This document shows positions 36,113 to 50,796 of a stretch of DNA of 64,000 nt, piece after piece. A model generated the notes under the pieces. It was given only the letters and a program-made list of their open reading frames with translations, searched no databases and had not been told where the DNA came from. Positions within the stretch are counted from its first letter, which is position 1. The number at the start of each line of letters is the position of its first letter. The position numbers and the translations under genes are program-made. The stretch comes from Microbacterium sp. BH-3-3-3. GTDB lineage: Bacteria; Actinomycetota; Actinomycetes; Actinomycetales; Microbacteriaceae. The stretch is taken from NCBI RefSeq assembly GCF_001792815.1, contig NZ_CP017674.1:2852001-2916000 (forward strand), in the 5' to 3' direction.

Positions 36113-36857
36113 GCTCCGCCCGCCCCTCGGCCACGGCGAGAACCCGGAAGGGCGCCGGCGTCTCGACCCGCCAGGGCGTTCCGAGTGCCGCGGCAAGCTC
36201 GGGGGCGCGGTAGCTGCGGCGGATCGAGCGCAGTCCGTCGACGCGCAGGAACGTGCCGGCCGACAGCGGGGCGATCCCCGCGGCGTACAGGGCGTAGGCC
36301 AGTCGGCCGCGGGCGATGTCGGCGTGCAGCACCCGACCACTCGAGAGGGCGAGCGAGTCCTCGGCGAACGTCGCCAGGGCGGTGGCGTCGAGGTGGTGCA
36401 GCACGTGGTTCGACACGACCAGGTCGTAGCGTTCGCCCGCGGCGCGCAGGGCGCCCGAGTCCTGGGCCACGAACCGCACGCCCGGTCGTTCGCGCGCGCG
36501 GGCCGAGGCGATGGCGCGGGGGTCGGGATCGGCGCCGGTCCACTCGACGTCGAACCCGTCGCGCGCGGCCAGGCCCGCCAGACGGACGGCGACATCGCCG
36601 CCGCCGCACCCCAGGTCGAGAGCGCGGGCGGGGCGGCCGAGCGCCCGCAACTGCGGGCGGACGCGCGTGCGGTACACGTGCCCCCAGGCCGAGACCAGGC
36701 GGTTCACGACGTCGAACCGCCGATACGTCGCCGCCAGGGCGCGCGGGTCGCAGTCGGGGTCGTCCATCAGCTCGGTGAGCGCCACATCGCGTCGGGCGAG
36801 GCCGCGCCAGAGGCCGGTCGCTCCGTCGCTGGTGGCGGGGCCTCGCGCGGCGCTCAC
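36105..36857 (-). CDS. Class I SAM methyltransferase (SrsB-like)
   Basis: A 250-residue SAM-dependent methyltransferase with motif I ALDLGCGGGDVAVRLAGLA, motif II-like DVEWTGADPDP, and YDLVVSNHVLHHLDATALA. A nearby Cys-poor C-terminus (LAYALYAAGIAPLSAG) fits small-molecule O-/C-methyltransferases. Its GTG overlaps the stop of the type III PKS gene (GTGA) and its own 3' end overlaps the monooxygenase gene, giving a tightly coupled three-gene operon. Confidence 0.9.
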   Translation of the reverse strand: MSAARGPATSDGATGLWRGLARRDVALTELMDDPDCDPRALAATYRRFDVVNRLVSAWGHVYRTRVRPQLRALGRPARALDLGCGGGDVAVRLAGLAARDGFDVEWTGADPDPRAIASARARERPGVRFVAQDSGALRAAGERYDLVVSNHVLHHLDATALATFAEDSLALSSGRVLHADIARGRLAYALYAAGIAPLSAGTFLRVDGLRSIRRSYRAPELAAALGTPWRVETPAPFRVLAVAEGRAERA

Positions 36858-37942
36858 GGGCGGCGCAGCGTCAGACGCGCCGCCTCGACCGTCAGGCCGG
36901 GGCCGAAGGCCAGCGCGGCGATCCGCTCCCCGTCGGGGTGCGTGACGTCGGCCAGCAGGTCGCGCAGGATGAACAGCAGGGTCGCACTCGACATGTTGCC
37001 GTGGGCGCGCAGCACCTCCCGCGAGGGCGCCAGGGCGGCGGCATCCAGGGCGAGAGCGCTCTCGACGCGGTCGAGGATGCTGCGGCCGCCGGGATGCACG
37101 GCCCACGCGTCGACGTCGCTCAGGTCGCCCAGCACGTCGGCGGCGATGCCGGCGATCTCGCGCCCGATGATGCGCGGCACCTCGGGGGTGAGGGTCATCT
37201 CGAACCCGGAGTCGCCCACCGTCCAGGCCATGTCCTTCTCGCCCTCGTCGGTGACGTGGGTGGCGAAGTCGTCGAGGTCGAGACCGGGGTGCGATGAGTC
37301 TCCGGATGCCACGACCGCGGCCGCCGCGCCGTCGGCGAACACCGAGGCGGCGACGATCTGGTCGGGGTGCGACGAGGTCTGCCAGTGCAGCGAGCACAGC
37401 TCGGCGCACGCCACGAGCACGACGGCGTCGGGGTCGGCGGTCACGATCCGCGCCGCGAGCCGCAGCGCGGGGATCGCGGCCGCGCATCCGATGAAACCGA
37501 GGTGGTACCGCTCGGCCGAGGTCGGCAGGCCGAGGTCGCGCACGAGGTGGTAGTCGGGACCCGGCGCGAACATGCCGGTGCACGAGACGGTCACGACGTG
37601 CGTGATGGCATCCGGCGTCCGCCCCGAACCCTCGATCGCGGCGCGCGACGCCTCGGCGAACAGGGCGGGTGCGGTGCGGCGGTACTCCGCGTTGCGGGCT
37701 CCCGTGGACGGCATGAGCAGCGTGTCGCCGTCGCGGACGCCGAGCCCGCCCCCGGTGCCGCCGGCGAGCTGCGGCAGCACGACGTGGCGGGTGTCGATGG
37801 CGGCGGCATCGAAGGCCGCACCCACCAGGCGTTGGGCCTTGCGGTCGAACCCGGGCTGCGCGGCGAAGAGGCCGCGCAGGGTCGATTGCTCGACGCGGGT
37901 CTCGGGCAGGGCCGTGCCGATCGAGAGGATGCGCGCGGTCAT
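36854..37942 (-). CDS. Type III polyketide synthase
   Basis: A 362-residue chalcone-synthase-fold enzyme. The catalytic triad is visible as Cys121 (VSCTGMFAPGPD), His283 (DAWAVHPGGRSIL) and Asn316 (RAHGNMSSATLLF); HLGFIGCAAAIPAL follows the active-site strand. In context (methyltransferase and flavin hydroxylase coupled downstream) it most resembles phenolic-lipid synthases such as SrsA, which make alkylresorcinols. The starter chain is not deducible. ATG start; first gene of the operon. Confidence 0.93.
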   Translation of the reverse strand: MTARILSIGTALPETRVEQSTLRGLFAAQPGFDRKAQRLVGAAFDAAAIDTRHVVLPQLAGGTGGGLGVRDGDTLLMPSTGARNAEYRRTAPALFAEASRAAIEGSGRTPDAITHVVTVSCTGMFAPGPDYHLVRDLGLPTSAERYHLGFIGCAAAIPALRLAARIVTADPDAVVLVACAELCSLHWQTSSHPDQIVAASVFADGAAAAVVASGDSSHPGLDLDDFATHVTDEGEKDMAWTVGDSGFEMTLTPEVPRIIGREIAGIAADVLGDLSDVDAWAVHPGGRSILDRVESALALDAAALAPSREVLRAHGNMSSATLLFILRDLLADVTHPDGERIAALAFGPGLTVEAARLTLRRP

Positions 37943-38126
37943 GCCTCACTGTAGACACGGTTCGGGGCGCCGACGGCGGGGATAGCGCGGTGTCGGCGCG
38001 CCGTCTATGGTGCCGCGCGGCGGCGTCGGTCCGTGCCGCCCGGACGCGCGGCGGCGTCCGGCCGCGAGGGTTCCGGCCCTCGCCCGGTACGCGGTCGTCA
38101 CGGCCAGACGACGCCGGTCGGTGGAC

Positions 38127-38170
38127 GCACATCGTGCCGAACGGTCGCGCGTTCGGTCGGCACGATGTGC
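38127..38170. terminator. Strong hairpin downstream of the split peptidase gene
   Basis: GCACATCGTGCCGA and its exact complement form the base of a 44-bp palindrome with a partly paired centre, 9 bases beyond the peptidase-fragment stop at 38179 and before the type III PKS promoter. A likely terminator for the former peptidase gene. Confidence 0.65.
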
Positions 38171-38178
38171 GAGGCGCG

Positions 38179-38400
38179 CTACGTGACGACGGTTTTCGTC
38201 GCGCTCGACCCGCGCGACCGCGTTGCATAGCCCGACTTCTTGCCGGTCACGGTGACGGTGAGGGTCTTCCCGACGTCGCGAGAAGCGACCCGGTACGTGT
38301 TCGCCGTCGCCCCCGCGATGACCGTGCCGTTGGCTTTCCATTGGTATGTCAGGGCGACCGTTCCCGGTCCCCATGCTCCGGGAGCGGCGGTGAGCGTGAA
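38179..38400 (-). pseudogene. 3' fragment of the split S15 peptidase gene (Ig-like C-terminal repeat)
   Basis: Reverse-strand frame FTLTAAPGAWGPGTVALTYQ, then WKANGTVIAGATANTYRVAS, then VGKTLTVTVTGKKSGYATRS, ending in KTVVT and a stop. This is one Ig-like cell-surface repeat without its first strand. The homologous repeat in the gene fragment at 47.1 kb (VGSPLTATVGAWGPGQVALS) shows that the missing first part is exactly what ends at 47121 (ISGTAKVG). So the two pieces are one gene split by inserted DNA. Confidence 0.85.
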
Positions 38401-38600
38401 TACCACATGCGATCTTTGACCCCATTGACCGGGTGCTAGAGATTTGGCCTGCGGAACATGACCGGCGAGAGCCATCGGACTCTCTGTCACTCGGACGAGC
38501 TGCGTCGTGAGCCAGTGCGATCACGGTTTGTCATGACCAGGACGACCCTACGTAGGCTCGTCAAGAAGCGGGTCTCTGTGAGGGGAGAGATTTCCCGACG

Positions 38601-38822
38601 TCAGAGCTGCAGCAGGCTTCGTAGCGCCTCAACCGCCGATTCCGGTGTTGCAAATTCGCCCAACGCAAGTCCTCGAACTGTCTCGCGGCTGTCGTCCGCA
38701 TGGCTCAGGCGGTAACTACCCGCCTCGCGCTCAACCCGCCACGGCGTCTCGACGAGGGCACCATCAAGTTCTTGAACCACCCAGTAATGGTCATCCTCGA
38801 TGCCACGGGCAATGTAGAGCAC
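38601..38822 (-). CDS. Hypothetical protein, 73 aa
   Basis: A small soluble protein (LYIARGIEDDHYWVVQELDG; a C-terminal LALGEFATPESAVEALRSLL helix). Reads like a real folded small domain, but no family is recognised. GTG start with only a weak GGAG. Base composition is lower in GC than the chromosomal genes, in keeping with the island. Confidence 0.5.
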   Translation of the reverse strand: MLYIARGIEDDHYWVVQELDGALVETPWRVEREAGSYRLSHADDSRETVRGLALGEFATPESAVEALRSLLQL

Positions 38823-39003
38823 ACTCCGAGAGTACGGCGGAGAATCGCAGACTCTTCAAAACCGGTGACCAGAAGCGTTCGGAGGGTGCGCATTCGAATG
38901 CGTAGCGGTGTGCGGGTTTACCGGCGCGAGCCGGAATGTACCCGATACCGATGCGACGAGTCGGACTGAGCTGGACAGTCGCGGCGCGGTGCGGCGCGGG
39001 ATG

Positions 39004-39047
39004 CATGTGGCTCAGGGTGGAGGGACATGTGACTCAGGGTGGAGGGA
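39004..39047 (+). repeat. 22-bp tandem repeat, two copies
   Basis: Two adjacent copies (39004-39025, 39026-39047) starting CATGTGGCTCAGGGTGG and differing by one base. They overlap the last five codons of the sensor-kinase gene. Tandem end repeats of this kind occur in IS21-type elements, so this might be the remnant of an insertion-sequence end; inference only. Confidence 0.6.
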
Positions 39048-40434
39048 GGTGACCGCGAGTCGGTGTCGCATCGGAGTCGAGGACGGGCAGGGCGATTGTG
39101 ATCACCAGCCCCTGTGGGGCTGTGTTGGAGAGTCGGGCCGTTCCGCCGGCAGCTGCTGCTGCGGCGGCTACGATCGCAAGGCCCAGCCCGCTGCCCTGCC
39201 CGGTCGTTCGCGAGTGGTCTTCCTGGGAGAAGCGGTCGAATGCCTGGGGTAAGAACTCCGGTGACATCCCGGGTCCGGTGTCGATGACGGTCGTCACGAA
39301 GTGGTCGGCCTCGACGGACAGGGTGACGGCGATCCGTCCTTCGCCGTCCAGGGCGCTGAGCGAGTTGGTCAGCAGATTGTCGAGTACTCGGCCGTAGAGA
39401 AGTGGTGCCATCGCTACCCGGCCGCGCGGCTGGGCTGCCACTGGCAGGGTGAGGTCGATCTCGACCTGTCCCCCCGACGCTGCCAGCCGCGCACGGTCGA
39501 GGGCCTCTCCGGCCTCCTCTACGAGTTCGCCGACCGTGGCGCGTGCTGGAGCCCGTCCGCTGTCGAGGCGGGAGAGTGCGAGGAGACTGTCGACGAGTTG
39601 GTTGAGACGCACGGTGGCGCGCTCGGCTTCGAGGAGGTCGGTGTCGAGACGGGTACGGTCGCCGGTGCGGAGGAGCTCGAGTTGCGCTTGCAGAACCGCC
39701 AGCGGTGTGCGGAGCTCGTGGCTCGCATCGGAGACCATCTGGCGTTCACGGGCGGCGGATGCGCGCAGCTTCGTGATCAGCGCGTTGAGGGTCGCGGCCA
39801 GGTCGGCGATCTCGTCGGTCGCCGGGCCGACCGGGAGCAGCGTGTCGCAGTCGTTGGCCACGATGATGTCGGCGCTGCGGCGGAGCTGGATGACGGGGCG
39901 GAGGGCCGCACCGGTGAGAACCCAGGAGACGATCCCGAAAAGGAGTGTCAGGGCTCCCAGGCCGATGACGAGGCCGGTGGTGAGGTCGGTGAGCACCTGC
40001 TGGGATGCGTTTTCGTTACGGGCGGAGATGATGGTCCAGTCGCCGGTCGAGGAGGTGACTTTCTCGACGGCGACCAGGTAGGTGGCGCTGTCGACGGTGA
40101 GGTGCTGAGGCCCGGACCGCCCGCTGTCGATTGAGTCAAGTTGGGCGACGATCGTGGCGGGCAGGGTGGAGGTGCGGGTGGCTCCGGCGGGGTCGATGAC
40201 GGCGATGAGCTGCCCCTCGCCGGGGTTGTCGACGGGGTCGTCGGGCTCTTGCTGGAGGGCGGTCTCGAACGGAGTGGCGTCGCTGGTGAGCACGTCGTAG
40301 GTGGCGTTCTGGAGAATGGTGTCGACCTGCTGGCGCACGATGATGGCGACGCCGGTGAAGAACAGGGCTGCGATCAGCAAGGTACCGATCGTGATCCGCG
40401 CGCGGATCGACAACCGGCCGAGGGCTCGCATCAC
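39034..40434 (-). CDS. Sensor histidine kinase (HisKA class)
   Basis: A 466-residue kinase: membrane segment at residues 16-34, an extracytoplasmic region of about 120 residues, a second segment near 152-176, a HAMP-like linker, HisKA with His239 (SDASHELRTPLAVLQ), and HATPase_c (NLLTNSLSALDG, DTGPGMS, GSGLGLAIVA). The C-terminus ends in the unusual tail ATPTRGHLPPP, part of which comes from a 22-bp repeat. It overlaps the response-regulator stop (GTGA), or it starts at the adjacent ATG (40431). Confidence 0.9.
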   Translation of the reverse strand: MMRALGRLSIRARITIGTLLIAALFFTGVAIIVRQQVDTILQNATYDVLTSDATPFETALQQEPDDPVDNPGEGQLIAVIDPAGATRTSTLPATIVAQLDSIDSGRSGPQHLTVDSATYLVAVEKVTSSTGDWTIISARNENASQQVLTDLTTGLVIGLGALTLLFGIVSWVLTGAALRPVIQLRRSADIIVANDCDTLLPVGPATDEIADLAATLNALITKLRASAARERQMVSDASHELRTPLAVLQAQLELLRTGDRTRLDTDLLEAERATVRLNQLVDSLLALSRLDSGRAPARATVGELVEEAGEALDRARLAASGGQVEIDLTLPVAAQPRGRVAMAPLLYGRVLDNLLTNSLSALDGEGRIAVTLSVEADHFVTTVIDTGPGMSPEFLPQAFDRFSQEDHSRTTGQGSGLGLAIVAAAAAAAGGTARLSNTAPQGLVITIALPVLDSDATPTRGHLPPP

Positions 40435-41126
40435 GGCCGCTCCAACCGGAACCCGACTCCGCGGACGGTGCGCACAGTGACTCCGGAGTCGACCGGGTCG
40501 AGCTTGCGGCGGAGGTAGCTGATGTACTGGTCGACAATGTTCGGGTCGGTGTGCTGCACGGTGCCCCAGATCTCGAGCAGGATCTGCTCCCGCGGGAGAG
40601 TCTGGTCGAGGTTCTGGGCCAGCAGCCGAAGCAGCGCGAATTCCTTGGGACTGAGCGGCACCGGGACACCGCTTGCCGTGACGGTGTGGTCATGGCTGTC
40701 GATGAGCAGTCCGGCGATCTCGAGTCGCGGGCTGGTGGTGAGGTTCTCGCGTCGGCGGAGGGCCCGGAGTCGTGCCGCCAACTCGGTGAAGGCGAATGGT
40801 TTGACGAGGTAGTCGTCGGCTCCGGAGTCCAGACCCTTGACCCGGTCGTCGACTTCGTCGCGGGCGGTGAGCATCAGGATGACCAGGGCGGGGTGGGCAT
40901 CTCTGAGCCGGCGGCAGAGTTCGAACCCCGACATGCCAGGCAGCATCACGTCGAGCACGGCCACCGAGAATCCGCCTCCTTGCGACTGGATGAGAGCAGA
41001 GGTGCCGTCTTCGAGCCAGGTCGCGTCGTAGCCCTCCTCGGTCAGGCCCCGCACCAGGAGCGGGCCCAGCTGGGTGTCGTCCTCGACGACCAGCACGCGC
41101 ACGGGTCGATCCGAGACAGCGGTCAT
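40431..41126 (-). CDS. Response regulator, OmpR/PhoB family
   Basis: A 231-residue protein with receiver domain (VVEDD, phospho-acceptor Asp59 in VAVLDVMLPGMSG, Lys in YLVKPFAFTE) and winged-helix DNA-binding domain (LSPKEFALLRLLAQN; YISYLRRKLDP; TVRGVGFRL). Partner of the kinase just downstream. Divergent from a second, different OmpR pair at 41263. ATGs at 41135 and 41126 are possible; AGGAAG suits the latter. Confidence 0.92.
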   Translation of the reverse strand: MTAVSDRPVRVLVVEDDTQLGPLLVRGLTEEGYDATWLEDGTSALIQSQGGGFSVAVLDVMLPGMSGFELCRRLRDAHPALVILMLTARDEVDDRVKGLDSGADDYLVKPFAFTELAARLRALRRRENLTTSPRLEIAGLLIDSHDHTVTASGVPVPLSPKEFALLRLLAQNLDQTLPREQILLEIWGTVQHTDPNIVDQYISYLRRKLDPVDSGVTVRTVRGVGFRLERP

Positions 41127-41262
41127 GGTGGCCATTCTTCCTGCTCGACCGTGCAGAGCGGGGTGTCTGAACGTTTTCTCATGGTCGACGCCCTCGGATC
41201 GCAGGAGTCGCCTGGCCCCGCTCCCTAGGTTCGGAGCCTGGTGGTTTCCTGGAGGGAATGGC

Positions 41263-41949
41263 ATGCGCATTCTGGTGGTCGAGGACGATCGGCGGATCGC
41301 GGACATCATGCGCCGCGCCCTGACGGAATCGGGGTACCCGGTCGATCTGAGGGCGGATGCCGCGGAGGCGCTGTTCGCGTTCGAGACCGATGTCTACGAC
41401 CTCGTGCTTCTGGACCTCATGCTGCCGGGCATGGTGGGTGGGGGTGTGGAACTGTGCCGGCGCATCCGGAGCGCCGACACCGATGTGCCCGTGCTCATGG
41501 TCACCGCGATGGACTCGACCCGGTCCCGGGTGCGAGGACTGGATGCCGGGGCGGACGACTACCTGGTGAAGCCGTTCCACCTCGACGAGCTCCTCGCCCG
41601 GGTGCGTGCGCTGCTGCGGCGCGCACCGAAAGCGATCGCGCCCGTGTTCGCTGTACGGGACGTCACACTCGATACCGGTCTGAGGCGGGCCTACCGCTCG
41701 GGTCGGGAGATCCCTCTCACCGCGAAGGAGTTCACCGTGCTGGAGTATCTGATGCGCAACGCCGGAACTGTGGTCTCCACCTCTGATTTGCTCGACCACG
41801 CGTGGGACACCAACAGCGATCGAGGCAGCAACGTGGTGCAGACCTATATCCGCTACCTCCGCCAGAAACTCACCGCGAAAGGCACGGCCGAGACCGAGTT
41901 CATCGAGACCCGTCGAGGCGCCGGCTATCTCGTGCGGACACACCTGTGA
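41263..41949 (+). CDS. Response regulator, OmpR family
   Basis: A 228-residue protein with receiver domain (LVVEDDRRIADIM, phospho-acceptor Asp51 in LVLLDLMLPGM, YLVKPFHLDELL) and winged helix (LTAKEFTVLEYLMRNAG; NVVQTYIRYLRQKL; ETRRGAGYLVRTHL). It shares 1 base with the kinase start downstream (TGATG). GGAGGG precedes the ATG. TCTCATGGTC lies in the divergent promoter region; a similar TCTCACGGTC occurs before the secreted-protein gene at 42904, which may mark a shared operator. Confidence 0.92.
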   Translation: MRILVVEDDRRIADIMRRALTESGYPVDLRADAAEALFAFETDVYDLVLLDLMLPGMVGGGVELCRRIRSADTDVPVLMVTAMDSTRSRVRGLDAGADDYLVKPFHLDELLARVRALLRRAPKAIAPVFAVRDVTLDTGLRRAYRSGREIPLTAKEFTVLEYLMRNAGTVVSTSDLLDHAWDTNSDRGSNVVQTYIRYLRQKLTAKGTAETEFIETRRGAGYLVRTHL

Positions 41950-42899
41950 TGTTCCGCCGGGCCGTCCTCCGGCTCACCGTGTTCTTCTCCCTCGTGCAGC
42001 TGACGGTCTTCGGGGCGTTCGCGGTCGCCATCTATCTCTTCGTCACCACGGTGTTCGACTACGACCCGCCCGAGGGCGACACCGCCATTGCCGTCGATGC
42101 GGCCGAGGTCGCGTTCTCGGGGCTGCGCACTGGGCTGCTGATTAGCTTCGCGATCCTCGTGGTGCTCGTGCCCGCCGTCAGCTATGTCATGGCCCGCCGC
42201 ACGCTCGCGCCGGTGCGGCTGGCGTACGAAGCGCAGGAGAGGTTCGTCGATGACGCCTCGCACGAGTTCCGCACCCCACTCAGCGTGATCTCGGGTGAGT
42301 TGGAGCTGGCGCTGCTCGCACCCCGCTCCAGCACCGAGTACGTCACCGCCATCCGGCGGAGCATCGACGCTGTCGAGCAGATGGAACGCCTCACCAGCGA
42401 CCTGCTGCTGCTCGGGCAGGCGGGCGATCGGCGCATCGAAGACATCTTCAGTCCCGTCAGGGTGAAGGAGATCGTTCTCGGAGCTATCCCCGGCCGCGAC
42501 CGGGATCGGTCCTGGCCGACACTGACGCTTGATTTCGACGGCGACCCGATCGTTCGAGGTTCGCGCGAGCTGCTGACCCGCGCGGTCGGGAACCTCGTCG
42601 AGAACGCCTCCAAGTTCACCCCGGCTTCCGGTGTCGTCCGGGTGCGGGTGAGCGAGCGTGCGGGCCTGGCGATCATCGCGGTCGCGGACGACGGTCCCGG
42701 ATTCCCGCCCGGCACCCAGTCCCGCGCGTTCGACCGGTTCTGGCGAGCGGACTCCGTGCAGTCCATCCCCGGCCACGGACTGGGCCTGCCGCTGGTGAGA
42801 CAGATCGTCACCGCTCATGGTGGCCGTGTGGCGATCGACTCGGAGACTCGACAGGGCACGGTCGCCACGATCGAACTTCCTAAGCTGAACGCGCGCTGA
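41949..42899 (+). CDS. Sensor histidine kinase, compact
   Basis: A 316-residue kinase with two membrane segments (residues 8-34 and 60-80) and only a short extracytoplasmic loop of about 25 residues, then HisKA with His105 (DDASHEFRTPLSVIS) and HATPase_c (NLVENASKFTPASG, DDGPGFPPG, HGLGLPLVRQI). No HAMP domain is obvious. Coupled to the response regulator upstream. The small sensor suggests detection in the membrane, or through a partner such as the secreted protein downstream. Confidence 0.9.
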   Translation: MFRRAVLRLTVFFSLVQLTVFGAFAVAIYLFVTTVFDYDPPEGDTAIAVDAAEVAFSGLRTGLLISFAILVVLVPAVSYVMARRTLAPVRLAYEAQERFVDDASHEFRTPLSVISGELELALLAPRSSTEYVTAIRRSIDAVEQMERLTSDLLLLGQAGDRRIEDIFSPVRVKEIVLGAIPGRDRDRSWPTLTLDFDGDPIVRGSRELLTRAVGNLVENASKFTPASGVVRVRVSERAGLAIIAVADDGPGFPPGTQSRAFDRFWRADSVQSIPGHGLGLPLVRQIVTAHGGRVAIDSETRQGTVATIELPKLNAR

Positions 42900-42981
42900 T
42901 GCCTCTCACGGTCATCTCATCGGCACGTTCGTACCGTCAGACCACGCACGCATTTCGTGTGCTCGACGAAGGAGAGAAGTC

Positions 42982-43332
42982 ATGAACAAGCGAACCACAT
43001 GGACGCTCGGGTCGATCGGAGCCGCCGTCCTCCTCATCGGTGGCGGCCTGGCCGTCTCCATCCCCGCCCAGGCCTCCAACACCACGCCCGCCCCGGCGAC
43101 CAGCCAGACCAGTGTCGAGGACGGAACCAACGATGGCGAGACCGCCGACGACACGGGCACGGACACCGGCATCGAGGACGGCAGCAACGACGGCGAGACC
43201 GCCGATGACGCCACTGAGACCGAAGACCCCACCGAGGTGAACGACCCCAACGAGGTCGAGGACAGCGCCGGTGTGGAGGATGGCAGCAACGACGGCGAGA
43301 CCGCCGATGACCCCACCAGCACCACGAAGTAG
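42982..43332 (+). CDS. Secreted acidic repeat protein
   Basis: A 116-residue exported protein: signal peptide (WTLGSIGAAVLLIGGGLAVS, likely cut after AQA) followed by an acidic tail with three near-identical repeats of VEDGTNDGETADD type (residues about 45-58, 65-78, 96-109), without Cys. It may bind cations through its Asp/Glu repeats. AAGGAG precedes the ATG. It directly follows the second two-component system, so it is a probable target. Confidence 0.8.
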   Translation: MNKRTTWTLGSIGAAVLLIGGGLAVSIPAQASNTTPAPATSQTSVEDGTNDGETADDTGTDTGIEDGSNDGETADDATETEDPTEVNDPNEVEDSAGVEDGSNDGETADDPTSTTK

Positions 43333-43340
43333 ACCCTGAG

Positions 43341-43377
43341 GACGGGCGGGAGCCGGTATCAGCGACACCCGTCCGTC
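43341..43377 (+). terminator. Weak hairpin after the secreted-protein gene
   Basis: GACGGGCGG pairs with CCGTCCGTC (one mismatch) around a 19-base loop, nine bases after the stop. Confidence 0.35.
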
Positions 43378-43476
43378 TGAGAGTTCTTTCAGGAACGCAG
43401 GCCCCGCATCCGGCCTGTTCTCGCACCCGCGGTGCTTAGTCTGCGAGCACCAGCCATCCACATCGAAAGGGCGCGC

Positions 43477-44130
43477 GTGCTGATCCAATCCGGGGGTCTC
43501 CTCGATCCGACCGCACTGCTGGAGGGCTCCGGGCCCTGGGTGCTGCCCGTGATCATGGGCATCATCTTCATCGAGACGGGCCTGCTGTTCCCCTTCCTCC
43601 CGGGAGATTCGCTGATCTTCACCGCAGCGCTGCTCACCGGGTCGCTGGGGCTTCCGCTCCCCGCGCTCGTCGCGGGCGTGGCCGTGGCCGCGATCGTGGG
43701 CGACACGGTCGGGTACGCGATCGGCCGCCGCTTCGGCCGGCGCCTGTTCAAGCCGGATGCGCGCATCCTGAAAGCCCGTTACCTCGAGAAAGCGGATGCG
43801 TTCTTCGCGAGGTACGGGGCCCACTCGCTGGTACTCGCCCGGTTCGTGCCGGTCGTCCGCACGTTCGTGCCGCCGGTGGTGGGCATGTCGAGCATGCCTT
43901 ACCGAAGCTTCCTGCTCTGGAACGGCATCGGCGGACTGGCCTGGGCGCTGCTGCTGGCCGTGGCCGGCTTCTTTCTCGGGAAGATTCCGGTCGTCGCCGA
44001 CAACGTCGAGCTGATCGCTGTCGGGATCGTCGTGGTGTCGGTCATCCCGATCGCCATCGCCGTCGTGCGGGAGCGGCGCGCCGACAAGCGCGAACGAGAA
44101 CGTGCCGCGGTCGAGGCCGACCGTGGGTGA
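43477..44130 (+). CDS. DedA family membrane protein
   Basis: A 217-residue protein with the SNARE-associated/DedA fold: LPVIMGIIFIETGLLFPFLP, GDSLIFTAALL, GDTVGYAIGRRFGRRLF, and the conserved FFARYGAHSLVLARFVPVVR with the FVPPVVGMSSMPYRSFLLWN motif. DedA proteins act as lipid (undecaprenyl or phospholipid) scramblase-like transporters in the membrane. GTG start with GAAAGG upstream. Its 3' end overlaps the next gene. Confidence 0.9.
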   Translation: MLIQSGGLLDPTALLEGSGPWVLPVIMGIIFIETGLLFPFLPGDSLIFTAALLTGSLGLPLPALVAGVAVAAIVGDTVGYAIGRRFGRRLFKPDARILKARYLEKADAFFARYGAHSLVLARFVPVVRTFVPPVVGMSSMPYRSFLLWNGIGGLAWALLLAVAGFFLGKIPVVADNVELIAVGIVVVSVIPIAIAVVRERRADKRERERAAVEADRG

Positions 44131-44899
44131 GCGCGTGAAGCGCGTGGACCTGAGCCGCAGCAAGGTGCCTGAGATCACCGTGCTGTTCTGGGTGACGAAG
44201 GTGCTCACCACCGGGATGGGGGAGACGACGTCCGATTTCGTCGTGACGAGCATCGAACCCGTCATCGGGGTCGCTGTCGCGTTCGTGCTGCTCGTCGGGG
44301 CGCTGGTGCTGCAGTTCCGTACCCGGCGGTATGTGCCGTGGGTCTACTGGCTCGCCGTGGTGCTGGTGAGCGTGTTCGGCACGATGGCTGCCGATGTCGT
44401 GCACGTGCAGTTCGGCGTGCCGTACGAGGTCTCGACCGCTGGCTTCGCGATCGTCCTAGTCGCGGTGTTCATTCTCTGGTTCCGCACCGAGCGCACCCTT
44501 TCGATCCACGCGATCGACACACCGCGCCGTGAAGCGTTCTACTGGGCCGCCGTGCTCACGACGTTCGCACTCGGCACCGCGGCCGGGGACTGGACCGCCC
44601 ACGTGCTCGGCCTGGGTTATCTCGGATCGGGGCTGCTGTTCCTCGTGGCGATCTGCATCCCCGCTGTCGCTTACGCGTTCTTCCGTGTCGACGCGATTGC
44701 CGCTTTCTGGGTGGCGTACATCGTCACGCGGCCGCTCGGTGCGTCCTTCGCCGACTGGCTCGGAGTCGGCCACGACCGTGGCGGCATCGGCGTCGGCACC
44801 GGCACCGTGAGTCTTGTTCTCTCCGCCGCGATCGCCGTCTGCGTCGCCGTGCTCAGCCGCCAGCGATCCCGGACCACCGCGGCGAGCCCGATCGTGTGA
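44123..44899 (+). CDS. COG4705-like integral membrane protein (first copy)
   Basis: A 258-residue protein with eight predicted membrane helices. The family pattern is clear: SKVPEITVLFWVTKVLTT, GETTSDFVVTS, RTLSIHAIDTPRREAFYW, TFALGTAAGDW and IVTRPLGASFADWLGVG. COG4705 proteins have no established function; they occur near metal- and stress-response genes. GTG start overlapping the DedA gene by eight bases, so translation is probably coupled. A second copy follows. Confidence 0.82.
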   Translation: MGERVKRVDLSRSKVPEITVLFWVTKVLTTGMGETTSDFVVTSIEPVIGVAVAFVLLVGALVLQFRTRRYVPWVYWLAVVLVSVFGTMAADVVHVQFGVPYEVSTAGFAIVLVAVFILWFRTERTLSIHAIDTPRREAFYWAAVLTTFALGTAAGDWTAHVLGLGYLGSGLLFLVAICIPAVAYAFFRVDAIAAFWVAYIVTRPLGASFADWLGVGHDRGGIGVGTGTVSLVLSAAIAVCVAVLSRQRSRTTAASPIV

Positions 44900-44964
44900 G
44901 AAGTCTCAGAGGCCGAGGGCGCCGTTCGCAGGATGCCCGAAACCCCGGTTGGGAACGTCAGAGC

Positions 44965-46224
44965 ATGAGCGCACACGCCACCCCACTCACGACTCGGCAG
45001 CTGCTGAGCAAAGTCCCCGAGATCACCATCTGGTTCTGGATCATCAAGATCCTCTGCACCACCGTCGGGGAGAGCTTCGCCGACTACATCAACATGGCCC
45101 TCGGCGTGGGACTGGTGGCCACCGCGATCATCTTCACCGTCGTCACCGTCGTCGTTCTCGCCGTGCAGCTGCGTCTCACTCGCTACCGGCCGGCGGCGTA
45201 CTGGTTCACCGTCGTGGTGTTGAGCATCACGGGAACCCTCTACACCGACATCCTCACCGACCAGGCCGGCGTGCCACTCTCCGCCAGCTCGGCCGTCTTC
45301 GCCATCGCTCTCGCGGTGGTGTTCGGAATCTGGTTCGCCCGCGAACGCACCCTCTCGATCCACAGCATCGTCACCCGCCCGCGCGAAGCCTTCTACTGGG
45401 TCGCCGTGCTCGTCACCTTCGCCCTCGGCACGGCCCTCGGCGACTGGACCCTCGAGCTCACCGGCTGGGGACCTGGACTGTCGATCCTGCTGCCCCTGGT
45501 GATGATTGGCATCGTCACTGCCCTCTGGCGGTACGGCGCCAACCCCGTGCTCATCTTCTGGATCGCCTACATCCTCACCCGTCCCCTCGGCGCCAACATC
45601 GGCGACTGGCTCGGGCTCACTCCCGCCGAAGGCGGCATCGGCCTCGGTACCTTCACGACCAGCCTGATCTTCCTCGCCGCCATCCTCGCCACCGTGATCT
45701 ACCTGACGGTCAGCAAGACCGACGTCGTAGAACGCGACCGAACCGTACCGGAACCCGCGACGTCACCACGACGCCGACGGGCGAGTCTCGGCATCCTTGC
45801 CGTCGTCGCGATTGCCACGGTCGCGCTCTTGATTTACACGAACAGCCAGCCCCATGCGAGCGTCCTGGCAGACGAAGGCTCGGGCCCGAGCTGCGACACC
45901 AGTACCTCCCTCACCCAGGACCAGGCGAAGGCCGCGGCCCGATCGAACTTCCCGACCGTGACCATGAACGAATTCCGAACCATCACCGCCGACATCCTGA
46001 CCGCCGTGCAGAACGGCGACGCAGCAGGCGCCGCGAAGAGCGCAACCGACCTCGAAACCGCGTGGGACGACAACCAGGACACCCTGAACGCCGCCGACTG
46101 CGGAGCCTGGACCTACATCGACCAGCAGATCGACCCGGTTCTCTCATCGGTGCGCTCAAGCACCCCCGACGCCGGCAACGAGCAGAAGACGCTGCAAACC
46201 CTTCTCACCACGCTCGGAGCCTGA
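44965..46224 (+). CDS. COG4705-like membrane protein with extra C-terminal exported domain
   Basis: A 419-residue protein. The first 265 residues match the preceding gene (SKVPEITIWFWIIKILCTTV; RTLSIHSIVTRPREAFYWVA; TFALGTALGDW; ILTRPLGANIGDWLGL). An added membrane helix (SLGILAVVAIATVALLIYT) leads to an extracytoplasmic helical region of about 130 residues with two Cys (GPSCDTSTS, NAADCGAW) that could form a disulfide. The extension is absent from the first copy. Gene is 65 bases downstream. Confidence 0.82.
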   Translation: MSAHATPLTTRQLLSKVPEITIWFWIIKILCTTVGESFADYINMALGVGLVATAIIFTVVTVVVLAVQLRLTRYRPAAYWFTVVVLSITGTLYTDILTDQAGVPLSASSAVFAIALAVVFGIWFARERTLSIHSIVTRPREAFYWVAVLVTFALGTALGDWTLELTGWGPGLSILLPLVMIGIVTALWRYGANPVLIFWIAYILTRPLGANIGDWLGLTPAEGGIGLGTFTTSLIFLAAILATVIYLTVSKTDVVERDRTVPEPATSPRRRRASLGILAVVAIATVALLIYTNSQPHASVLADEGSGPSCDTSTSLTQDQAKAAARSNFPTVTMNEFRTITADILTAVQNGDAAGAAKSATDLETAWDDNQDTLNAADCGAWTYIDQQIDPVLSSVRSSTPDAGNEQKTLQTLLTTLGA

Positions 46225-46300
46225 TCGCGATTGAATGGTCGCGAGACGGTCGGCCGGGCGCCTTTGGATCGGCATTCGCGGGCGTCTACGTCGGGTGTGA

Positions 46301-46675
46301 TCACTGTGGCAGTGACGCAACCCGGATTTCCTGCAGTGCCCAGGTGTTGCCGTCGGGGTCGGCGAAGAAGGCGTAGAGCACGCCGCCCATGTCCTGCACC
46401 TCGCTGACGGCGAGGCCGCGGCCGACGAGAGCGGCACGCTCCGCCTCGACGTCGTCGACCACGAGGTGCAGATTCGAGACCGGTCCACCGCTGCCCATGC
46501 CGACGCCGAACGCGATCGAGCAGGCCGAGCCCGGCGGGGTGAGCTGCACGACGCGCATCCCGCCCCCGGGCGAGACGTCGTGGTCAAGCGTGAACCCGAC
46601 CACGTCGCGGTAGAAGGCGACAGTGGCGTCGACGTCGCTCACGGCGATGGGCACGAGTTCCAGGCGCATGGTCAT
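46301..46675 (-). CDS. VOC family protein (glyoxalase/bleomycin-resistance fold)
   Basis: A 124-residue protein: LELVPIAVSDVDATVAFYRD, VVGFTLDHDVSPGGGMRVV, NLHLVVDDVEAERAALVGRG, and FADPDGNTWALQEI. This matches small VOC proteins that bind metal or act as dioxygenase/lyase-like enzymes; substrate unknown. The ribosome site is weak. It is convergent with the COG4705 gene pair. Confidence 0.88.
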   Translation of the reverse strand: MTMRLELVPIAVSDVDATVAFYRDVVGFTLDHDVSPGGGMRVVQLTPPGSACSIAFGVGMGSGGPVSNLHLVVDDVEAERAALVGRGLAVSEVQDMGGVLYAFFADPDGNTWALQEIRVASLPQ

Positions 46676-46715
46676 TGCCGAACGATAGCGCGTCGACAAT
46701 CACCACCAAGATCCG

Positions 46716-46901
46716 CTAGTTCGACGGCGGCGCTTCGAGGAGTTGCGCTGCCCAGCTGCGGAGCAGGTTGAGAGCAACGGTGGAGGGTGTGCCCGGCTCG
46801 GTGAGATAGGTGGCGATGACTTTGCCGCTGGTTGAGGGGAGGGCGAGGGTTCCGCAGGAGAGGGGCATTTCGCCGACGACCGAATGGTTGGTCTCCCTGT
46901 C
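46716..46901 (-). pseudogene. C-terminal remnant of a MmyB-type HTH regulator
   Basis: Reverse-strand frame NHSVVGEMPLSCGTLALPST, SGKVIATYLTEPGTPSTVAL, NLLRSWAAQLLEA and a stop. This matches the end of the MmyB-like ligand-binding domain of XRE/MmyB regulators (the pattern of a VVGEL strand, a TAEPGTPS-like strand and a final ALxLLxSW helix). A stop codon lies at its 5' edge and no HTH is found upstream, so the gene is a fragment. Confidence 0.6.
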
Positions 46902-47120
46902 CTAATAGGGGATCGTTCACCGGACGCATAAATGAAAGGGACGACACGCCTAAACGGCGCGTCTCGTCTAACTGGTCCGAAGTAGGTTCCGGTGACCGGG
47001 GGCCATGTGAGTCTGCCCGCGTGTACCTTCGGGTCGACGAGGGCCGATCGTCGGCAAGAACGCTTCCTAACATCTCGTCGGTGTTGCGCGTCACAACTGC
47101 GAGTCGTGGCAAGTTGTCAA

Positions 47121-49384
47121 CCCCACCTTCGCGGTTCCGCTGATCGCTGGTGCCACGCTCGTCAGCGTTCCTGACACGGTCTTGGCGGTGGGGTTCGACG
47201 GGCGACTGGTGGAGGTGTATCCGACCTTCCTGCCCGTGACGGTGACGGTGATGGTCTTCCCCCGCGCTGAGGGCGAGGGTGTCCACGTGCTCTTCGTGGC
47301 TCCCGCGATGGCGACGCCGTCGGCGGCCCACTGATACGACAGTGCGACCTGCCCCGGCCCCCAGGCGCCGACCGTGGCGGTGAGGGGCGAACCGACGCGA
47401 GCAGTGCCCACGATGGTCGGCGTCTGCGGGACGAGGACTCCCGCGATCACGGTGTCTCCGCCGACGATCGGGACGGACAGCGAGGTGCCCGCGAGGTCGA
47501 TGGTGGAGCCTGCCGTGCCGACGTAATCGCCGACGGTACCGGGATCCAACTGAATGCTGTTGTTGTAGAGCACGAGGCCGAGGCGGTGTCCCGCGGGGAC
47601 GGTGTGATCGGCGGGGAACAGCGTCCAGGTGAGGTCGACGTAGGTGCCCTGCGGGACCGGTGTGTACCGCTCGAGCGACTCGTGGTGCGCGATGCTCGCC
47701 GTCCCTCGGGTGATCACGGAGCTGCCGGTCGTCGCGGTGAGGGCAACGGTGTCGGCATAGGTGGCCCCCTCCTCGGCGCGTGAACCGCCCCATTCCCGTG
47801 TCGAGTCGAGTGCGCGGATGCCATTCCCTCGTGACCAGTCGACGATCTCGGCGGGGCCGTAGTCGACGAGCGCGACCGAGATGTTCGCATCCGCCGCCTC
47901 CGGGCGAACCCGAACGGTGACCGATGGAGTCCCCGAGATGCGGGCGTCGGCGGACAGAGGCGCGGACGCGTATACGAGCCGGTCGCGTCCGCCCCGCGGT
48001 TCGGCCGCGCCGCCGGTGAGGGCGAAGGGGGCCGCGTCGTCGAGCTGCGCACCGGCGAACGAGGCTGTTCCCGTTCCGGACGCTCCGATCCGGAGGGTGC
48101 CGACGCCGTTCTTCGCGCCGACGCCCAGGGTGACGGCGGTACTGCCCGGCACGGGCCAGGTCGGTGCGTCTTCCCACACGTCGGGCTGCGTCTCGACGCG
48201 GACGGCGGGCTCGTCCGTGATCCCGTTGTCGATGCCGAGGAGCTCGTGGTCGTACCACCGGTGCAGAGTGTCGCTCCATCCGTCGCGATCGACGTCGAAG
48301 GGATCCACGTGCGCCCGACGATGCAGCCACAGCTTCGATTCGACACCCGCCTGCTGCAGGGCCGCCCAGTGCTCGCCGAACTCGTTCGTGCGCACGATCA
48401 TGTCGCCCTGCCCGGTGGCGATGAAGACGCTCACGCCGTTCGCGGCGATGGTGTCGACCTTGCGCGTGTAGTTGCGGGCGTCCCAGAAGGCGTTGTAAGA
48501 GCGCTCGGCGGGGTCGGAGTCAGCGCGCATCCGGCGAATTGCGGCTGGCAGACGCGTCGCTTCTCGGCCTGGTGCTCGCGCAGCCGCGCCGGATTCGAGG
48601 GGTTCTCGACCCCCGCGGGCTCGGGCTCGGTGAGCCATTCCGAGAAGTTCGCCGTGCCACCCCCGACGAACACTCCATGCGGGCGGGTGTTGTAGGCGCT
48701 GCTCCCGCCGGCGATCGGGACCACCGTCTGCAGGCCCGGCACGGCCGTCGCCGTGGCCACCGCGTTGGCGATGCCGCCGTCGTACGAGATGCCCGTCACG
48801 GCGCTCTTGCCCGAGCTCCACCGGGCGTCCACGGTGAGCTCGCGATCGAGGTTGCGGTACGCGACGGAGTCGGGTTCTCCGTGCAACCACCGGATGACGG
48901 CGGCGACCGATTCGACGTCGTTCGGCCCCACGTTGTCGACGCACCCTTCCGACCAGTTGGTGCCGGCGACGTCGACCGAGATGTAGGCGTATCCGCGGGG
49001 GACGAAGTAGTTGTCTTCCCACCCCGGCATGAACGCGAGGTCGCTGACGTCGCGGTTCGCGTTGTCGACGTACGGCTTGCCTCCCGGCGTGCCGTTGTAT
49101 CCGGTGGCGGTGATGATCGCGGGAACCTGCACCGCGGCGGGAGTACGGGGTCTCACGATGTCGGCGCGGATGAGGTCGCCGCGGCCGTCGCCGTCCGAGT
49201 CCATCGCCGCTTCGACGTAGACGTGCTCGATGAACGCTTCGGCCATGTCGTACACCGCCGCGGATCGACCCTCGCCATCCACCACCGGTCCCCGTGCGGA
49301 CGCAGCGGGAACGGGGGCGAGGAACGAGGTACCGAGCACCGCCGCGCAAGCGAGCGCGGCAACGATGGAGCGTGATCGAGGCAT
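47121..49384 (-). pseudogene. Secreted S15-type X-Pro dipeptidyl-peptidase, frameshifted and interrupted
   Basis: Signal peptide (SIVAALACAAVLGTSFLAPV), peptidase S15 domain with nucleophile Ser in TGISYDGG, later TLHRWYDHELLGIDNGI and a C-terminal jelly-roll domain (XPP C-terminal, VVYASAPLSADARISGTPSV-like), then one Ig-like repeat. Two lesions: a one-base shift near 48525-48540 moves the reading frame between QAEKRRVCQPQFAG and RADSDPAERSYNAFWD, and the gene is cut at ISGTAKVG by the island. The remaining tail is at 38179-38400. Start chosen at the signal-peptide ATG; an ATG at 49450 is in frame. Confidence 0.85.
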
Positions 49385-49599
49385 GTGCAACCATTCGGGG
49401 GGACGGGGAGGCACTGTGATCACAGGCGCTTTCCGGCCATCATTGCGCATATCGTCCGCGCGTGTGGCTCAGGCGTCACAGTGTGCGCCGACTGCCCGTC
49501 CCGTAGACGACCACGTTGACTCTGCCGCCACCCGCGCGTGGTGCGGAATCCGTCGGTACCGTGCCACAGGGCGACGGTGTTCTCACCTCGCGCCGAGGG

Positions 49600-50796
49600 T
49601 CAGGCGGCCAGGACGCTCGGCAGCAGCAGGCTCGAGATCGCACCGCGGTAATCGTCGACCATGCGCTTGCGGTCGATGCGCGTGCGCGCGGCGAGGGCGG
49701 CGCGGCGCAGCTCGCCGCGGCGGTGCAGCGCGTCGTCCCAGGCGGCGGCGATCGCGGCGGCGTCGCGGGGCGTGACGAGGCCGAAGCCCGCGACCATCCG
49801 GGCGGCGTCGCCGACGTCGGTGGTCACGGGGACGGCTCCGGATGCCGCTCCCTCGGCCAGGCAGAGGGGTGAGGCTTCGCCGAAGGCGCTGGTGAGGGCC
49901 ACGATGTCGGCCGCGCGATACAGCTGCGGCATGTCTTCGCGCAGTCCCAGGGCGTGCAGCGCCACCGTGCCGTCGATGCCGTTCTCGGCGAGCAGGGCGG
50001 TGAACAGGGGATTGTCGCGGGTCATGCCCGAACCGCACATGACGTAGTGGGCGCCGGGGGAGAGCGCCGCATGGCGCGCCACCGCCGCGAGGAACAGCCC
50101 CGGGTCTTTCATGGCGTCGAAGCGTGCCGCCAGCAGCACGACGGGGGCGGACTCCGGGATGCCGAGACCCTCGCGGATGCGGTGACGCTCGGCCCGGGTG
50201 CCCGGGCGGAAACGACGGGTGTCGATGCCGTTGTCGATGACCCACGCCTGCTCGGTGACGACGCCGGCGCGGGCGTAGGCGGTCGACGTCGACGAGGCGC
50301 AGGCGATCGTGGCCGACACGGCGCCGGAGGCCCCGGCATCGCGCAACCACCCCAGCGCCGGCCCCGAATGCGTGGGATCGGAGCGGTGCAGGCACGCCGC
50401 CACCGGCCGTGCGGGCAGGAGCCCGGCGCGATCGAGGGCCACCACGAGGCTGAGCGGCTGCTCTTTCAGTGAGAGCACGACGTCGGCGTCGGCGAAGAGA
50501 TGGGCCGCCCGCTCGAGTTCGGGCCGGGTGAAGTCTTCGGGGTGCACCGGGTGATCGCCCGCGATGCGGTCGAGGGCGTCGATGCGCACCCCGGCGCGGC
50601 GCAGACGGCGATAGCGCGTGTCGTCGCGGGCGAGCTGCAGCGACGCGTCGCGACGGGCGGCGGAGGTGAGCGAGAGCACCCGGTGGTGCTGCGCACCGCC
50701 GGCGGCGAGACCCGCGATGACGTCGGAATGCAGAATCCGTGCGCCCCCGGCGAAGAAGCCCTCGTACAACGACAGCACGCGCAGGGGTCGAATCAT
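49600..50796 (-). CDS. GT4-type glycosyltransferase
   Basis: A 398-residue glycosyltransferase, GT-B fold: N-terminal VLSLYEGFFAGGARILHSDV, central VIDNGIDTRRFRPGTRAE and FDAMKDPGLFLAAVARHAAL, and C-terminal SAFGEASPLCLAEGAASG with the EX7E pattern. It probably transfers a sugar from a nucleotide donor to a cell-envelope acceptor; acceptor unknown. GGAAGG precedes the ATG. Confidence 0.9.
   Translation of the reverse strand: MIRPLRVLSLYEGFFAGGARILHSDVIAGLAAGGAQHHRVLSLTSAARRDASLQLARDDTRYRRLRRAGVRIDALDRIAGDHPVHPEDFTRPELERAAHLFADADVVLSLKEQPLSLVVALDRAGLLPARPVAACLHRSDPTHSGPALGWLRDAGASGAVSATIACASSTSTAYARAGVVTEQAWVIDNGIDTRRFRPGTRAERHRIREGLGIPESAPVVLLAARFDAMKDPGLFLAAVARHAALSPGAHYVMCGSGMTRDNPLFTALLAENGIDGTVALHALGLREDMPQLYRAADIVALTSAFGEASPLCLAEGAASGAVPVTTDVGDAARMVAGFGLVTPRDAAAIAAAWDDALHRRGELRRAALAARTRIDRKRMVDDYRGAISSLLLPSVLAA

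Follow-up and report, generated by a model that had tools for sequence, protein, structure and literature searches.

A gene for a secreted S15 peptidase in Microbacterium sp. BH-3-3-3 has been split by an 8.7-kb insert carrying two two-component systems and a set of membrane-protein genes, within a window of 64,000 nucleotides (the whole stretch of DNA analysed; G000:C1:2852001-2916000) of a 3.5 Mb genome held in a single contig and 99.93% complete. That one S15 gene was interrupted, as a preliminary description of this DNA had proposed, is strongly supported by P0001, a continuous protein that unites both halves. As to how the insert arrived, we favour, with confidence that is evenly balanced, a one-off capture of plasmid-like Microbacteriaceae DNA by non-homologous (illegitimate) joining, most likely through Ku/LigD. 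Such an event would be of an already known kind, with an unusually clean footprint.

Read on the minus strand, the peptidase runs as ...APAISGTAKVG up to position 47121 and picks up as FTLTAAPGAWGPG from position 38400, with its stop codon at 38179-38181; both halves lie where the preliminary description had placed them. A protein search, limited to the in-frame C-terminal part of the peptidase and scoring the 8000 candidates that shared most words with it, identified P0001 (841 aa, with PF02129 and PF08530, in a cluster of 23 member sequences), which is 97% identical at full query coverage and reads ...APAISGTAKVG-R-TLTAAPGAWGPG... across the junction, with no residue gained or lost. In an ungapped alignment with the window, 453 of 465 residues agree on the N-terminal side of the junction (in the stretch that follows a frameshift described below) and 65 of 73 on the C-terminal side, whose eight mismatches include the junction residue itself. 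Three further proteins, P0002-P0004 (79–83% identical), are likewise continuous through the junction. The predicted uninterrupted allele was thus found at the level of protein, with the halves fusing at an unchanged residue count, and two anticipated objections fell away: the four closest relatives each carry a single unbroken gene rather than two separate peptidase genes, and the fragment at 38.2 kb matches the end of that S15 gene rather than some other. Where both ends had been said to be defined to the base, what stands, with the uninterrupted allele read as protein, is a placement of both target breakpoints within about 3 nt. One could still suppose that no insertion took place and that two independent genes with similar Ig-like repeats flank the block by chance, such repeats being common (a 464-aa C-terminal query matched 28 of 58 genomes, own included, mostly in the repeat part). 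However, P0001 unites precisely the two parts found in the window, and a chimaeric P0001 is unlikely since P0002-P0004 are continuous at the same place; the two-gene reading was therefore rejected, and of all those considered it is the least probable. In genome_contigs a peptidase pattern matched 32 stretches, none a relative by tblastn, and plasmid records searched at E 1e-50 gave two distant peptidase matches, 36% identical.

The insertion is not the only damage to this gene. Pfam finds both PF02129 and PF08530 in it, spread over two frames owing to a frame change near 48.5 kb (48500-48560), upstream of the insertion, through which P0001 and other intact relatives continue; intact copies therefore exist, and the gene in the window has been broken twice. 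The frameshift may be either a real mutation or a sequencing error, and the latter would lend something to the notion that the split is itself an assembly artefact, which a single-contig genome of this completeness and an insert with gene content of Microbacteriaceae type render very improbable. Faster decay of the orphaned 3' fragment was also considered, and no conclusion was drawn: with the junction residue excluded, 7 of its 72 residues differ from P0001, a higher rate than the 8 of 365 in the peptidase part (p 0.005), whereas comparison with the stretch directly before the junction (4 of 100) gives p 0.20, and the C-terminal part is also more variable between P0001 and P0002-P0004. Just 3' of the peptidase stop codon, positions 38126-38171 hold two 23-nt arms, back to back and 87% complementary, which are possibly a terminator.

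The residue at the junction bears directly on mechanism. Fused, the halves give Gly-Phe-Thr, where P0001 and P0004 have Gly-Arg-Thr, P0002 has Gly-Ser-Thr and P0003 Gly-Ser-Met, and Phe occupies this position in one of 222 distinct repeats (L009; the repeats are motif-fitting, 23 from loci and 199 from proteins, with duplicates dropped). Because P0001 has Arg where the fused halves give Phe, the dinucleotide TT, which is all that is repeated at both junctions, is probably not the ancestral target dinucleotide. On the simplest reading of these residues, the target would have lost about two bases and duplicated none. Were the Arg encoded by CGC, the loss would be of two bases, TT would be part of the insert, and there would be neither a duplicated target nor a shared core. 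The earlier observation that TT is common to both junctions is accordingly true of the present ends, and not of those uninterrupted alleles that are known.

A shared TT had suggested the core of a serine integrase; the rival considered here is site-specific integration by such an enzyme acting in trans on an element without a recombinase. Besides the TT itself, PF07508, a serine recombinase domain, scores above its cut-off at three other places in the genome (L115, L116, L117), and the reconstructed circle junction is symmetric at seven of the ten positions nearest the core (counted post hoc) and at 10 of 20 overall, a value that the empty site assumed with TT also gives. Yet the Arg or Ser of all four uninterrupted alleles, together with the rarity of Phe among the repeats, speaks against a two-base core; 5% of window positions show at least this degree of arm symmetry, and in simulation 16% of random insertions are expected to share at least two bases at their ends. 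Compared with 20-kb stretches round the three PF07508 matches, the circle junction reached 23 of 42 at best, against 22 of 42 in a 30-kb control on one strand, and a 28-base match (E 6e-4) fell in the interior of the insert rather than at its ends. With no Phe in the four alleles, near-background symmetry and no second copy of the ends found, the proposed core is not supported, and integration of this kind appears quite improbable. Serine-integrase genomic islands likewise present a foreign gene block with sharp ends and two shared bases, but the window is without a recognised integrase, a supported core or a found second copy. A shade less probable again is a mobile cassette that has defined ends and no recombinase of its own; an enzyme encoded by the same cell and specific for a TT core would move it in trans, with a stress-response module as its passenger; were that true, it would represent a new sort of passenger element.

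The ends of the insert were sought elsewhere. Among the matches listed for two edge queries in 366 genus genomes (best one or two candidates per genome), a full-length match occurred only in the own genome; at E 0.01 or better, matches were present in 16 and 32 of the 366 genomes, own included, and outside the own genome none was longer than about 50 bases or better than E 9e-5, which is chance level. No exact match to the left-end 24-mer was found in genome_contigs or viral_contigs, nor to a right-end pattern in viral_contigs, and the left edge had no match among plasmids. The preliminary description saw no intact recombinase, and none of any kind was recognised in the insert frames scanned, not every short frame inside the core being among them. 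The main rival to end joining is transposition with an erased footprint, in which the gene first received an insertion sequence or composite transposon that afterwards lost its transposase and ends through rearrangements, leaving the cargo behind. A mosaic-like insert, in which a regulator gene is truncated and no gene was recognised in the low-G+C edges, fits such a history, as does an IS3 transposase gene lying about 7.5 kb from relatives of the cargo module on a Cnuibacter plasmid. Against it, the edge frames scanned yielded no recognisable piece of a transposase, no terminal inverted repeat is evident on reading both ends (the repeat search treated each edge separately, and the preliminary description likewise reported none), and the rearrangements would need to have spared the target to within about 3 nt on both sides; stepwise transposition is, in our judgement, unlikely whilst deserving to be kept in view.

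Capture by end joining would begin with a double-strand break within the S15 peptidase gene, into which Ku/LigD would join plasmid-like DNA, the donor presumably being a plasmid, with about two target bases lost and none duplicated if the single junction residue is a guide. We consider this route most likely because the target is clean, no duplication fits the alleles, the ends are unmatched in the genomes searched, no recombinase was recognised, and the host possesses Ku (E 6e-52) and LigD (E 2e-33), which are divergent neighbours elsewhere in its genome. The G+C content of the insert (0.67–0.69 in intact genes, 0.66 in the regulator fragment and 0.59–0.61 at the edges) is lower than that of the peptidase gene (0.70) and of the flanks beyond it (0.72–0.73), and was counted in favour of the capture of foreign DNA. 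Similarly, relatives of the module at other sites in the genus and partly on Cnuibacter and Frigoribacterium plasmids, and of the small right-edge gene on Herbiconiux plasmids, were counted for a plasmid-like origin. Illegitimate integration is documented in Rhodococcus jostii RHA1 (PMC12169178), likewise with no site or sequence specificity and no recombinase of its own; that case concerned a laboratory plasmid under selection, whereas the window holds a natural gene block. In mycobacteria, another source describes the rate of illegitimate integration as high relative to homologous exchange (PMC3102665), and a survey of bacterial non-homologous end joining does not address foreign-DNA capture in the part covered (PMC7719229).

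It is worth noting, however, that several points weigh against end joining. Firstly, Ku/LigD represents a capability rather than a trace of the event, and the enzyme is not named by anything in the sequence. Secondly, the two-base loss is deduced from one residue of protein; the ancestor could have had another codon, and Phe does occur, if only once, among the repeats. Thirdly, the insert is mosaic-like, its regulator gene breaking off at 46901, so that it probably arose through more than one event; transpositions whose ends have since been lost may have been among them. Finally, the entire insert was found on no one plasmid, and the best match covers 32% of a 6-kb query. The insertion, natural, roughly 9 kb long and resolved to a few bases on both sides, with a known uninterrupted allele and a host with a Ku/LigD pair, belongs to those cases that let one ask how often actinobacteria acquire foreign blocks without a mobile-element enzyme.

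Table 1. Features of the split S15 peptidase gene, its insert and the adjoining genes (window coordinates).
Feature	Position	Strand	Basis or remark
Type III polyketide synthase gene, conserved neighbour	36854..37942	-	
S15 peptidase 3' fragment: remainder of last Ig-like repeat and stop codon	38179..38400	-	65/73 residues identical to P0001 end
Insert, 8720 bases	38401..47120	.	P0001 comparison
Small open frame	38604..38855	-	38691-38822 (132 bases) match a hypothetical gene of two Herbiconiux plasmids at 79% identity
22-bp unit, two tandem copies	39004..39047	+	Repeat search
Sensor histidine kinase HK1 (HAMP, HisKA, HATPase_c)	39034..40434	-	Pfam
Response regulator RR1 (Response_reg + Trans_reg_C)	40431..41126	-	Pfam
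Response regulator RR2 (Response_reg + Trans_reg_C)	41263..41949	+	Pfam
Sensor histidine kinase HK2 (HisKA, HATPase_c)	41949..42899	+	Pfam
Small protein, signal-like N-terminus (by eye), acidic unit xEDGxNDGETADD x3	42982..43332	+	
DedA/VTT-domain membrane protein	43477..44130	+	Family profiles
DUF347 (COG4705) membrane protein	44126..44899	+	Pfam
DUF347 protein with extra C-terminal stretch	44965..46224	+	Pfam
Glyoxalase-fold (VOC) protein	46301..46699	-	Pfam
MmyB-like regulator C-terminal fragment (PF17765), front part missing	46719..46901	-	E 1e-5, 26.1 bits, cut-off 26.3, profile positions 124-168/168
Left edge, low G+C (0.59)	46902..47120	.	Nothing above chance level found
S15 peptidase 5' part (PF02129, PF08530, first Ig-like repeat and start of second)	47121..49450	-	Open reading frames, Pfam, P0001 comparison
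Glycosyltransferase-like gene (398 aa; name by eye), conserved neighbour	49600..50796	-	78-83% identical in 7 relatives

Family profiles bear out the description of the cargo as sensory and membrane genes (Table 1), with two two-component systems, a DedA protein and two DUF347 proteins. The missing front part of the MmyB-like regulator suggests an older break inside the insert. The 22-bp tandem unit was tried as the end of an insertion sequence and rejected: a 20-base pattern drawn from it is present in one of 295 genomes, its own, and in none of the 294 others of the genus. A reasonable guess, going by family annotation and one paper's proposal, is that the two sensor/regulator pairs, DedA and the DUF347 proteins constitute a small regulated membrane module serving a response to envelope or metal stress. 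In Frankia, that paper proposes DUF347 as a metal transporter and places operons with DUF347 and UppP among the genes up-regulated under lead stress (PMC4531530). The best NCBIfam model for both HK1 and HK2 is a heavy-metal sensor kinase, at 148 and 155 bits, far below the cut-off of 293. The acidic-repeat protein, for which no family was found with Pfam at E 0.001 or NCBIfam at E 0.1, possibly binds cations. Within the library searched, no paper containing both DedA and DUF347 was found.

Relatives of the cargo are arranged in several ways (matches over 60 bits listed for G093 and G194). In G093, RR1-HK1 is divergent from DedA-DUF347-DUF347 in the same order, 72–88% identical and without RR2-HK2, so that this genome, and in part the Cnuibacter plasmid, resembles the window in its DUF347 (COG4705)-DedA-two-component neighbourhood; the window, by contrast, adds a second regulator pair and the acidic gene in between, and the window neighbours tested are absent in G093. 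G194 holds relatives of both regulator pairs (45–62%) and of the DUF347 pair (67%) in a different order. A search of five module stretches (L090-L094, 18–20 kb) turned up no polyketide synthase, glycosyltransferase or S15 part, so the module occupies other sites there. Parts of the 6-kb module query matched 104 plasmid records, the best being the 215-kb Cnuibacter physcomitrellae plasmid NZ_CP020716.1, and VTT, regulator and kinase genes follow one another on a Frigoribacterium plasmid. On the Cnuibacter plasmid, the stretch 75525-95180 (L100) has DUF347 and VTT matches near iron uptake, cation-efflux and ArsR-type genes. The closest DUF347 protein outside the own genome is 90% identical among the matches listed, and the longer DUF347 protein has many relatives of similar length, those with names being mostly from Microbacteriaceae and Arthrobacter.

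An orthologous locus in the genus was sought and rejected. Among the matches listed in the 366 genus genomes (best five candidates per genome), the N-terminal S15 part was found at E 1e-40 in three, own included; the two others are 43–47% identical there, and both the polyketide synthase and the glycosyltransferase are missing from the stretches fetched for them (17.0 and 7.6 kb). These two genes are neighbours in all seven relatives fetched, which gave the best polyketide synthase matches among the 33 genomes, own included, that matched out of 58; in none of the seven was an S15 part seen (E 0.001). The polyketide synthase is 83–88% identical in these relatives, and the gap that separates it from the glycosyltransferase measures 0.1–0.25 kb in three (G020, G009, G016) and 1.5–3.1 kb in four (G007, G006, G024, G027), compared with 11.7 kb in the window (37942-49600). 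From this variable gap we take the interval to be a small variable spot, and the peptidase gene was probably itself an earlier arrival, or else was lost elsewhere. The four wider gaps hold other genes, with a short-chain dehydrogenase in three (by eye) and different genes in G006.

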